Positions 32,291-35,142 of a stretch of DNA of 64,000 nt are shown piece after piece. The notes below the pieces were generated by a model. The model did not search any database. It was not told the origin of the DNA and saw only the letters and a program-made list of their open reading frames with translations. The DNA comes from Actinokineospora spheciospongiae (lineage in GTDB: Bacteria; Actinomycetota; Actinomycetes; Mycobacteriales; Pseudonocardiaceae): positions 1 through 64,000 of the forward strand of contig NZ_AYXG01000203.1 of the NCBI RefSeq assembly GCF_000564855.1, written 5' to 3'. Position 1 is the first letter of the stretch. Every line of letters begins with the position of its first letter. The position numbers and the translations under genes are program-made.

Positions 32291-32345
32291 GGTGGGGACA
32301 TACCGTGGTCGACTCGGGGGCACGCCGTGGACGAGGGATGTGACG

Positions 32346-33542
32346 ATGGGTGGTGTTGACCGGGGGTCCCCCCTCGCCAGTCGCGAGTTCCGCGCGCTCT
32401 GGATCGCCGAAGCCCAGTCCGTGGCCGGGGACCAGCTCGCCAGGGTGGCCATCTCGGTGCTGGTCTACCAGCGCACCTCCTCGGCCGCCCTCACCGCCCT
32501 GACCTACGCCCTGACGTTCCTGCCCGACATCGTCGCGGGCCCGCTGCTGTCCGGGCTCGCCGACCGGTTCCCCCGGCGCGCGGTGATGGTGGCCGCCACC
32601 CTCAGCCAGGCGGTGCTCGTCGGGGTGATGGCCATCCCCGGGGCGCCCATCGCGCTGGTCGCCGCCTGCGTCGCGCTCGAAGCGGCCGCGCAGGCCCCGT
32701 TCAAGGCCGCGCAGACCGCGCAGGCCCGGGTCATCCTCGGCAACGACGACCTCGCCGCGGGCCAGGCCCGGCTGACGACGCTGCGCGAGGTGGGGCAGCT
32801 CGCCGGGCTCGCCGGGGCCGCCGCGGTGGTCGGGTTCCTCGGCACGACCCCCGCGCTGGTCATCGACGCGGTCACCTTCGTCGCCGCCGCGCTCGTGTTG
32901 CGATTCGGTCTGCTCGACCGTCCGGCCGCGCGGACTGCGGCGGTCGCCACCGGCGGACTGCTCCTTCCGGACCCCAAGCGCCGGGCGGTTGCCGCCCTGT
33001 CCCTGCTCGCCGCGCTCACCGTGATGCCGCACGGGCTGATCGTGCCGCTGGTCGACGAGCTGAACGCTCCGACGTGGACGATCGGGCTGCTCCTCGCGGC
33101 CGACCCGTTCGGCCTCGTCGTGGGCGCCTACCTGTTCTGCCGCTCGGGCAGGTCCAGGGAATCGCGCAACGCGCTGATCGTGCCGCTCGCCCTGCTGTGC
33201 CTGGGGGCACTCGTGTTCTTCGCCGCCAGACCACACCCCGTGATCGCCGCGCTACTGCTGGCGATCTCCGGACTCGGTGCGGCGTACCAGATCCTGGCCA
33301 AGTCGGCCTACGTGGAACTGCTGCCCGACGCCGTGACGGGTCGGGCGACCGGGATGGTGCGCACCGGGCTGCGGGCCGGGCAGGGGCTCAGCGTGCTCCT
33401 CGGGGGCGTGCTGACCGAGGTTTTCGACTCCGCCGCTGTCACGATCGCGCTTGCGGGCGCGATTGGCACCGTAGGCTGCGCTGTGGCGGGCTTCGTCTGG
33501 AACCGAGGGAGGTCCGGCTCGCCCAGGGAGGTGATCGCGTGA
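32346..33542 (+). CDS. MFS transporter
   Basis: A 398-residue carrier with about twelve membrane helices. The N-terminus SREFRALWIAEAQSVAGDQLARVA and the ADRFPRRAVM loop are typical of the MFS_3/enterobactin-exporter-like group common in actinomycetes. The substrate is unknown. The ATG at 32346 follows GAGGGA; a GTG two codons upstream is possible. The gene ends 7 bp before the tail of the minus-strand mini-ORF transcript, so the two units converge. Confidence 0.85.
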   Translation: MGGVDRGSPLASREFRALWIAEAQSVAGDQLARVAISVLVYQRTSSAALTALTYALTFLPDIVAGPLLSGLADRFPRRAVMVAATLSQAVLVGVMAIPGAPIALVAACVALEAAAQAPFKAAQTAQARVILGNDDLAAGQARLTTLREVGQLAGLAGAAAVVGFLGTTPALVIDAVTFVAAALVLRFGLLDRPAARTAAVATGGLLLPDPKRRAVAALSLLAALTVMPHGLIVPLVDELNAPTWTIGLLLAADPFGLVVGAYLFCRSGRSRESRNALIVPLALLCLGALVFFAARPHPVIAALLLAISGLGAAYQILAKSAYVELLPDAVTGRATGMVRTGLRAGQGLSVLLGGVLTEVFDSAAVTIALAGAIGTVGCAVAGFVWNRGRSGSPREVIA

Positions 33543-33549
33543 TCGAGGC

Positions 33550-33570
33550 TCAGTACTCACGATTGCGCAT
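33550..33570 (-). CDS. Mini-ORF encoding hexapeptide MRNREY (copy 2)
   Basis: ATG CGC AAT CGT GAG TAC TGA on the minus strand, with AGGAGG (33579-33584) eight bases before the ATG, an ideal ribosome-binding site. Together with copy 1 at 33639-33659 it encodes the same six residues with different synonymous codons. That is the pattern expected if the peptide itself is under selection. The function is unknown. The stop is 8 bp from the end of the convergent MFS gene. The longer frame it terminates (to 33741) has poor coding character and is not called. Confidence 0.55.
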   Translation of the reverse strand: MRNREY

Positions 33571-33611
33571 TGCGGCTTCCTCCTCGGGGGTCCTGCCAAT
33601 CGAAAAGTCGA

Positions 33612-33629
33612 CGAGAGCGGTCGCTCTCG
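33612..33629. terminator. Hairpin between the two mini-ORFs
   Basis: 7-bp perfect stem (33612-33618 with 33623-33629) with a four-base loop. On the minus strand a TTTT follows shortly after, giving a weak terminator or attenuator between copy 1 and copy 2. Confidence 0.45.
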
Positions 33630-33638
33630 GGATGCGTC

Positions 33639-33659
33639 TCAGTACTCGCGGTTCCGCAC
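33639..33659 (-). CDS. Mini-ORF encoding hexapeptide MRNREY (copy 1)
   Basis: GTG CGG AAC CGC GAG TAC TGA on the minus strand, preceded by GGAGG (33667-33671) with a seven-base spacer. No other start codon is available in frame before an upstream TGA. Relative to copy 2 it differs at the start codon and at the third bases of codons 2, 3 and 4, with no amino-acid change. It lies divergent from the diguanylate cyclase gene (ATG 33751), so its promoter would be in 33672-33750. It is too small for ordinary gene prediction. Confidence 0.55.
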   Translation of the reverse strand: MRNREY

Positions 33660-33750
33660 GGGGATACCTCCAACTCGAATCCGGAACTCCCGGACGTGGC
33701 GGCCCGAATGCGCGCCACAAGCAGTGTCCCGTCTGTCTCAAAGGGGGACA

Positions 33751-35142
33751 ATGCCCAGTCTGACAAGCCCTCAGCGCGGCCGCTTGTCCGGTGTCCCCCT
33801 AGCGCGACGGCTCGCTTCTCTGGATCTGGTCGCGCACACGACCCGGCTGGGCCTGGTCTGGATACTCGCCACCGAGGCCGGGATTCTCACCTGGGTGGTC
33901 CTCGGCACCGCAGCCTCGGGTGCGCCGGACTCCCTGTCGCTGCGGCTGTTCGCGCTGCTGACCGGCTTCGCCATCCTGCACATGGAGGCCACGCGCCCCG
34001 CCGAGGAACGCCGCCGGGCGGCCCACCTGGGCGGCGAGCACATCGACCACACCGGGGTCTGGACGTGCGCCGGGGCGTTCGTGCTGCCGGTCCCCCTGGT
34101 CGTCGCACTGGTGCTGATCATCCGCTTGCGACGGTATTTCATCGCCAGGAAACCACCCGGTCGATACCTGTTCACCACCTCCGCGATCACCTCGTCGGCC
34201 CTGGCGGCCCAGGCGATCGCCACCGCCACCCCGGTGCACGCCTGGATTCGCGGCGCCCCCGTACCACCCGATCGGGTCATCTCGGCGGGCCTGGCGGTGC
34301 TGGCCGCCTTCGCCGCCTACTACGCCGCGCAGACCGTCGTCATCGGCCTCGCCCGCGGCCTGCGCGGTGACTGGCAGTGGATCTCGATCCTCGGCGAGCG
34401 CAAGGAGAACGCCGACCTGCTCATCACGCTGTGCCTGGGCCTCATCGCCGCCTGGGCCGCCGGGGTCGCCTACGGGCTGCTCCTGTTCGCCCTCGCCGGT
34501 GTGGTGATCGGCTACACCAGGCACACCCAGCGCATCGAGCAACTGGAGCAGGAACGCGACCGCCTCGAGGTCGACGCCCTGCACGACCCGCTGACCGGCC
34601 TGGCGAACCAGCGCGGGTTCAACCCCGCCGCGGTGCTGGCCCTGGTCGCCGACCAGGCCCGCCGCAGGCCGACGGCGGTGATGATGTTCGACCTGGACCG
34701 CTTCAAGCAGGTCAACTCGCGCCTGGGCCACCTCGGGGCGAACGAGGTGCTCAAGGCGCTCGCCGGAGTGCTGCGGGCGAGCGTGCGCCGCGACGACCTG
34801 GTCTGCCGCTGGGGCGGTGAGGAGTTCACGGTCCTGCTGCCGAGCACCTCCCGGGTCGACGCCTGGGCGATCGCGGAGCGGATTCGGGACGCGGTGGAGA
34901 ACATGACGGTGGAGCTCACCCGGGCCGCGGGCGGGCGCACGGAGGTCGAGGCGGGGTTCACGATCTCCGGGGGAATCGCGCTGTCACCCGAGCACGGAAC
35001 GGACCTGGCGGCGTTGCAGGAGCACGCGGACCAAGCCCTCTCCGAGGCGAAGAACGGCGGCCGCAACCAAATTCGGATTACTCCGTCAATGCCCCTCCCC
35101 GGCCCCCGCGCCTCCCGCGAGCCGACTTTCGAGCGGCCTTGA
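33751..35142 (+). CDS. Membrane diguanylate cyclase (GGDEF)
   Basis: A 463-residue protein with six or so N-terminal membrane helices (about 30-260), a short coiled coil (HTQRIEQLEQERDRLEVDA) and a C-terminal GGDEF domain. The active-site motif is GGEEF at 355-359. An RRDD inhibitory I-site stands five residues upstream, so it should make c-di-GMP from GTP with product inhibition. In actinomycetes c-di-GMP acts through BldD and other receptors on development. The ATG at 33751 follows AAGGGGGA; a GTG at 33724 is a weaker alternative. Confidence 0.92.
   Translation: MPSLTSPQRGRLSGVPLARRLASLDLVAHTTRLGLVWILATEAGILTWVVLGTAASGAPDSLSLRLFALLTGFAILHMEATRPAEERRRAAHLGGEHIDHTGVWTCAGAFVLPVPLVVALVLIIRLRRYFIARKPPGRYLFTTSAITSSALAAQAIATATPVHAWIRGAPVPPDRVISAGLAVLAAFAAYYAAQTVVIGLARGLRGDWQWISILGERKENADLLITLCLGLIAAWAAGVAYGLLLFALAGVVIGYTRHTQRIEQLEQERDRLEVDALHDPLTGLANQRGFNPAAVLALVADQARRRPTAVMMFDLDRFKQVNSRLGHLGANEVLKALAGVLRASVRRDDLVCRWGGEEFTVLLPSTSRVDAWAIAERIRDAVENMTVELTRAAGGRTEVEAGFTISGGIALSPEHGTDLAALQEHADQALSEAKNGGRNQIRITPSMPLPGPRASREPTFERP

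Follow-up and report, generated by a model that had tools for sequence, protein, structure and literature searches.

Phr peptides are cut from an exported pre-peptide that carries a signal sequence, and their receptor is a cytoplasmic TPR protein that is encoded beside them. The Microcin C pump MccC is an MFS protein, and c-di-GMP controls actinomycete development. In an excerpt of work on the Phr system, PhrF (QRGMI) and PhrC (ERGMT) have a shared core and differ at their first and last positions (PMC3601957). Genes of minimal length are documented in two further systems, excerpts of the respective sources giving the product of mccA as the seven residues MRTGNAN, with MccC as the dedicated pump (PMC7136475), and biarylitide precursors as five residues from 18-bp genes (PMC13417212).

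The locus described here is part of a stretch of 64,000 nucleotides from Actinokineospora spheciospongiae (contig NZ_AYXG01000203.1, positions 1 to 64,000), which is referred to as the window. It occupies the gap between two plus-strand genes, which the first-pass annotation had named from the letters alone as an MFS transporter and a membrane diguanylate cyclase; domain matches confirm both, the former (32292..33542; PF07690) being the proposed exporter and the latter (33724..35142; GGDEF domain, PF00990, at residues 285-449) the proposed receptor. On the minus strand of the gap, two tandem six-codon ORFs are present as first reported, mini-ORF 1 at 33659-33639 (GTGCGGAACCGCGAGTACTGA) and mini-ORF 2 at 33570-33550 (ATGCGCAATCGTGAGTACTGA), and both encode fMRNREY. 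Each has its own Shine-Dalgarno sequence on the same strand (GGAGG at 33667..33671 with 7 nt spacing, and AGGAGG at 33579..33584 with 8 nt), and all four codon differences between the copies are at the start codon or synonymous. Since the MFS and GGDEF genes are both on the plus strand, the mini-ORFs run divergently to the GGDEF gene and convergently to the MFS gene, whose stop codon lies antisense 8 nt downstream of mini-ORF 2. The MRNREY pattern gave two matches in the window and none in 100 shuffles, and a slightly wider pattern returned the same two sites alone across the 7.5 Mb genome; on these grounds a chance origin of the pair was rejected. The same genome has a second GGDEF locus (G000:C33, L290) with a single altered mini-ORF, MRSRDR, which on its sequence appears to be SRDW with CGG in place of TGG.

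Selection on the peptide had been argued from the window pair, and the comparison with related genomes bears this out. Across 10 Actinokineospora species, MRNREY is encoded by 20 of 20 copies, all in tandem pairs, which differ only synonymously or in the start codon (ATG/GTG, CGG/CGC, AAC/AAT, CGC/CGT and, in one A. globicatena copy, Arg CGC changed to AGA), while the Shine-Dalgarno sequences are kept and the spacers have diverged. Among 200 Pseudonocardiaceae genomes, the pattern matched seven (reversed-pattern control, no matches), each with exactly one pair whose copies are 80-95 nt apart; six of the seven, that of the window included, are among the 10 genomes sampled from Actinokineospora. 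The remaining four of these 10 (G078, G100, G179 and G190) have no MRNREY pair, as judged by a fixed-spacing pattern of Shine-Dalgarno sequence plus ORF with up to three mismatches allowed. In G100 a GGDEF protein with a 66% identical membrane part is encoded at a locus from which the mini-ORF is absent, and at further GGDEF loci all four genomes encode different tetrapeptides (DREL, SRDW, DRDL, DRDM, NRDM and VRDW). A 44-bp block (33723..33766), which lies between mini-ORF 1 and the coding part of GGDEF and overlaps the GGDEF start (candidates GTG at 33724 and ATG at 33751), is strongly conserved in the 10 species and contains the similar elements CAGACTGGGCA and CAGACGGGACA. This block may represent a divergent promoter or operator; a scan of 33300-34000 with the sigma-70 consensus returned no promoter.

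The first-pass annotation had before it a single pair, and its observation is real but understated, in that the window pair belongs to a wider family of peptide genes of minimal length that are linked to GGDEF genes and arranged in arrays of up to 21 copies. A relaxed pattern matched 21 of the 200 family genomes, with one match for the reversed control, and tandem MRDREY, MSDREY and MLDREY/MMDREY occupy the equivalent MFS-GGDEF gap in other genera. The general form, found upstream of GGDEF homologs, is M-(x)n-x-R-[D/E]-phi-stop, with endings that include DRDF, GRDF, SRDF, NRDF, DRDW, SRDW, VRDW, ERDW, DRDL, DRDM and NRDM as well as DREA, DRET, DREL, DREW, NREW, NREY and DREY; variant endings are seen in MSDRAW, present four times in L267, and in M[RG]G[VIF]EY of genus g28. 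For a survey of 93 GGDEF loci, 80 were taken down the listed GGDEF protein matches, some near-identical species being skipped, and 13 known mini-ORF carriers were added: ten, among them the window, that have the R[DE] motif, and three that have a variant ending. At least one mini-ORF (range 1-21) is present at 70 of the 93 loci and at least two at 46. Within the 80 protein-search loci alone, the motif was found at 60, or 61 when the MSDRAW of L267 is counted, which leaves 19 without it. The highest count, 21, is that of A. iranica (G136; MRSRDW/MSRDW), followed by 18, 14 and 10.

The survey count of 206 mini-ORFs includes one false call, MLLPYRRDS, which was dropped for the codon statistics to leave 205, and a few extra copies with TTG starts or weaker Shine-Dalgarno sequences are visible and were left out of the counts. 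Every one of the 205 has its own Shine-Dalgarno sequence and stop; 191 are of 5-6 codons, the longest called being 11, with ATG (129) or GTG (76) starts and TGA (194), TAA (8) or TAG (3) stops. Twenty shufflings of the surveyed 114 kb yielded no mini-ORFs.

A spread beyond the Pseudonocardiaceae was considered and rejected. The pattern MxxRD[FWLC] matched 72 of the 200 family genomes, which fall into 18 of the 46 genera, with three matches for the reversed control, and one of 246 genomes, in a single copy, in a sample of the class without other members of the family. A strict tandem pattern matched 12 genomes among 298 from the order, every one belonging to the 54 Pseudonocardiaceae sampled and none to the other 244. 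The strict tandem pattern (RD followed by F, W, L or C) had no matches in a viral collection, and a phage origin was set aside on that basis. A scan for [N/D]REY returned 18 stretches, five of which, each with a single copy and from unrelated groups, are regarded as chance matches.

Two sets of motif-like ORFs were observed in other settings. In genome G183, MKNREY, MNNREY (two copies) and MRNREY are found away from GGDEF genes (L026 7860-7880 and 10097-10077, L027 8861-8881, L020 9904-9924). A SnoaL-like gene follows MKNREY at 50 nt, and a gene for a secreted 146 aa protein, present in two copies, follows MNNREY at 54 nt; both genes were named by eye. In two genomes of genus g8, MSNRDF (L269 6749-6769, L270 7348-7368) overlaps the final part of a gene for a small membrane protein; a response regulator lies upstream and pilus-like genes are nearby, again named by eye.

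The pattern of codon change within arrays identifies what is conserved. Between the members of 135 adjacent array pairs, the final four codons differ synonymously 119 times and non-synonymously once, whereas codon 2 of the six-codon ORFs has 27 synonymous and 42 non-synonymous differences. By residue of the tetrapeptide, the synonymous and non-synonymous counts are 53 and 1 for the first, 37 and 0 for the second, 26 and 0 for the third, and 3 and 0 for the last. Changes at R and D/E would be undercounted, because the search rule fixes both codons, and the fair test is therefore that of the first and last residues together, at 56 synonymous to one non-synonymous. Serine codons alternate between TCN and AGY within arrays, a single tetrapeptide is used in 45 of 46 multi-copy loci, and the five other ORFs preceded by a Shine-Dalgarno sequence that were found inside arrays do not resemble decayed copies. 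Since the last four codons are constant and the N-terminal length is variable (MSRDW/MRSRDW, MVERDW/MRVERDW), the conserved product is the C-terminal tetrapeptide. Over all arrays, the codons for R and D/E differ (182 and 98 pair differences, respectively) only at the third position as read on the mini-ORF strand, which identifies this as the constrained strand within the mini-ORFs. These codon comparisons strongly support the conclusion that selection acts on the translated peptide.

The second constant feature is the GGDEF gene. Across the 93 loci, all 206 called mini-ORFs lie on the strand opposite to GGDEF and none on the GGDEF strand. Among the matches listed for all 72 genomes, 67 of 76 clusters are within 3 kb upstream of a GGDEF match (nine are not), and all 67 of these linked clusters are on the opposite strand. 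In the window protein, GGEEF and RxxD motifs are seen by eye, and the N-terminal part has no Pfam match and no credible PDB relative; EspR was considered as a relative of the membrane part and rejected, the nearest chains having E values of only 0.23-0.3. Homologs of the membrane part are present in 141 of the 200 family genomes. At five loci (L198, L199, L200, L206 and L192), GGDEF homologs are without mini-ORFs and have a P450 gene upstream.

Tetrapeptides appear to be allotted to GGDEF paralogs. In all 10 genomes with at least two labelled GGDEF loci the tetrapeptides differ between loci; in Actinokineospora, for example, NREY accompanies one GGDEF clade and SRDW another in the same genomes. 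When the tetrapeptides are laid on the GGDEF tree (93 rows, 74 of them labelled), 33 label changes are required, against a mean of 55.4 and a minimum of 50 in 200 shuffles. Such agreement is the pattern that insulated ligand-receptor pairs would be expected to leave, though linked genes share a tree anyway. Covariation of the last tetrapeptide residue with the protein did not separate the sensor part (mean z 2.16) from the GGDEF part (2.07); the ten strongest covarying columns are in the membrane part, a set that was chosen after the fact and from linked genes that share a tree anyway. In five Actinokineospora loci of the SRDW/VRDW class (L253, L254, L256, L258 and L266), every array spacing is a multiple of three and the GGDEF frame passes through the array from a conserved Shine-Dalgarno sequence and TTG start to its left, so that the GGDEF protein has an in-frame repetitive N-terminal extension opposite the array. 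From the triplet spacings and the passage of this frame, both strands are probably coding in this class.

The MFS gene is a frequent rather than a constant partner. A homolog lies upstream of GGDEF in 56 of the 93 stretches, on the GGDEF strand in 55 and on the other strand in one, and 48 of the 55 have the motif, or 52 when four variant loci are counted. In the other 37 stretches no MFS match was found, and 21 of these still have the motif, including the NREY locus of G152; for two of the 21, a longer stretch does reveal one on the other strand, separated from the array by 1.6-1.7 kb. In the three longer SRDW/VRDW stretches L275-L277 an MFS gene is located on the other strand, at 0.7-1.7 kb from the array, and two of the three have an SDR gene in between. 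MRNRDF, in turn, is found in line with an MFS homolog, approximately 118 and 200 nt upstream of it (L272 7079-7099 and L273 7301-7281), and no GGDEF homolog was found in these stretches, which come from two genomes. The NCBIfam models nearest to the window MFS protein are TIGR00900 and EntS, and its matches to both fall far short of the cut-offs. By eye, neither a peptidase nor an importer was noticed as a constant neighbour in the listed genes. In L278, L282 and L283, and also in L255, L240, L229 and L193, the last mini-ORF is followed after a few hundred nt, on its own strand, by an SDR-like gene, also named by eye.

The scheme that is proposed for these cassettes draws on gene sequence and arrangement. 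A short transcript divergent from GGDEF would carry between one and 21 separate ribosome-binding sites, from each of which a leaderless formyl-peptide, mostly of 5-6 residues and ending in a locus-specific x-R-[D/E]-phi (NREY in the window), would be translated, with repetition of the gene serving to raise dosage. The linked MFS protein would export the peptide, or the tetrapeptide left after N-terminal trimming, and the linked diguanylate cyclase would sense it through its membrane part and set the level of c-di-GMP, such that paralogous cassettes with different tetrapeptides could act as private channels. The translation signals, the selection on the tetrapeptide, the linkage to GGDEF and often to MFS, and the use of one peptide type per receptor gene are all well supported by the comparisons above. 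We would give an even chance to the proposition that the two window ORFs belong, as genuine minimal genes, to a cassette for peptide signalling in the Pseudonocardiaceae in which the MFS protein is the exporter and the cyclase the receptor. The fuller statement, that the Pseudonocardiaceae signal by leaderless tetrapeptides made from arrays, exported by MFS proteins and read by paralog-specific cyclases into c-di-GMP, is more tentative and is put a little below even.

The peptides could instead stay within the cell, as miniature regulatory subunits acting on the membrane domain of the same cell's cyclase or on the MFS protein. The absence of a leader would suit such a role, as would the divergent arrangement, which lends itself to co-regulation, and it is GGDEF and not MFS that forms the most constant link, with 21 motif loci having no MFS match in the stretch. 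Conversely, the recurrence of MFS upstream in 56 stretches, and its association with a mini-ORF in the two genomes in which GGDEF was not found beside it, would not be expected of purely intracellular subunits. Private tetrapeptides for each paralog are expected here as well as under export and sensing, and so do not discriminate. An intracellular role is considered unlikely, though it deserves to be taken seriously.

It is rather improbable that the arrays function as a translated regulatory RNA, a leader or antisense transcript in which translation of the codons would be the sensor and GGDEF, MFS or some gene downstream would be the target. The arrays adjoin the 5' end of GGDEF, and in the SRDW/VRDW class the GGDEF frame runs through them; the NREY mini-ORFs of G183 are 50-54 nt upstream of the SnoaL-like and secreted-protein genes; and a called same-strand gene, in several cases an SDR gene, lies within 600 nt downstream at 11 of 70 motif loci, such that a leader role is possible at some loci. 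At the other 59, however, there is no called same-strand gene that near, and a cis-acting leader does not fit the window, in which nothing but the 3' end of MFS, read in antisense, follows the mini-ORFs. The hairpin with a T-run that was first noted between the window copies does exist, as 7 bp at 33612..33629 on the minus strand followed by TTTT at 33603-33606, but it is not a conserved feature, a terminator scan around it called nothing, and array spacers are not specially folded: over 131 spacers within arrays, 30-130 nt in length and drawn from many loci, the mean folding z was +0.29, with one of the 131 below -2. With the spacers no more folded than shuffles, and no Rfam match in the window between 33000 and 34200, a conserved RNA structure or terminator between the copies is not supported, and the window hairpin looks incidental. 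An attenuator with codon specificity fits poorly also with the variation among TGA, TAA and TAG stops, the TCN/AGY switch at serine and the one change of arginine from CGN to AGA.

Less probable still is that the mini-ORFs encode minimal RiPP precursors, or precursors of a Microcin C-like antibiotic, for export by the MFS protein. The combination of minimal genes and a pump recalls mccA/MccC and the biarylitide genes. However, as searched with one P450 query, P450 genes are absent from the window, as the first-pass annotation had remarked of the immediate neighbourhood, and are not constant in the survey, being present in seven of 93 stretches, none of which has two or more mini-ORFs; no MccB-like neighbour was noticed by eye among the listed genes, and the tight pairing with GGDEF would be left unexplained. 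A conserved non-coding DNA repeat, or chance, can be dismissed as scarcely credible, for although some arrays are near-identical, single matches such as MLSFAGREW in L263 may be fortuitous and the reversed relaxed and MxxRD[FWLC] patterns do give one and three matches, change is nearly all synonymous, including the serine and arginine exchanges between codon families, Shine-Dalgarno sequences are kept and ATG and GTG exchanged while spacers diverge, and shuffles give no matches. Among the roles that were offered initially, then, the peptide signal fits best, while the regulatory leader misfits the window and a RiPP of the P450 type is not supported.

Should the proposed export and sensing of the tetrapeptides be correct, peptide signals encoded by genes too short for ordinary gene callers would be present across an actinomycete family and wired to c-di-GMP, and a class of membrane diguanylate cyclases to which no ligand is assigned would gain one. 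Four residues would suffice to test the specificity between peptide and receptor, and arrays of genes of 5-6 codons would be established as a gene architecture. If the signalling model is set aside, codon-level selection in about 200 mini-ORFs still indicates a family of minimal genes likely to be missed by annotation. The open-licence PMC literature that was searched yielded no description of the mini-ORF family, which is apparently undescribed, and the open-licence literature searched yielded no ribosomal peptide gene beside a membrane diguanylate cyclase.

Set against the described systems, the family resembles each in part. Biarylitides need a dedicated P450, and none is constant beside the mini-ORFs, from which biarylitide core motifs such as YWH, YVH and YWY are absent. 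Microcin C, so far as the excerpted account of it extends, is similar in having a minimal gene product and a dedicated pump; the mini-ORF family differs in its arrays, its GGDEF partner and its non-Asn C-terminus, and an adenylating enzyme was not seen by eye. The window cyclase, with a GGEEF domain and I-site behind a hydrophobic N-terminal part, is like other membrane diguanylate cyclases whose sensors are unknown. Constancy within loci (45 of 46) and difference between paralogs (10 of 10 genomes) are found as in peptide signalling, and it is Phr/RRNPP signalling that may be regarded as offering the nearest known logic. Two of its defining features are replaced in the mini-ORF family: the exported pre-peptide by leaderless arrays of ORFs of mostly 5-6 codons, and the TPR receptor by MFS and GGDEF neighbours, with the membrane cyclase as candidate receptor. 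What appears to be shared, to the extent that the excerpt on PhrF and PhrC allows comparison, is the use of very short peptides with specificity in the end residues, the tetrapeptide x-R-[D/E]-phi varying mainly at its first and last positions, and of one peptide type per receptor paralog.
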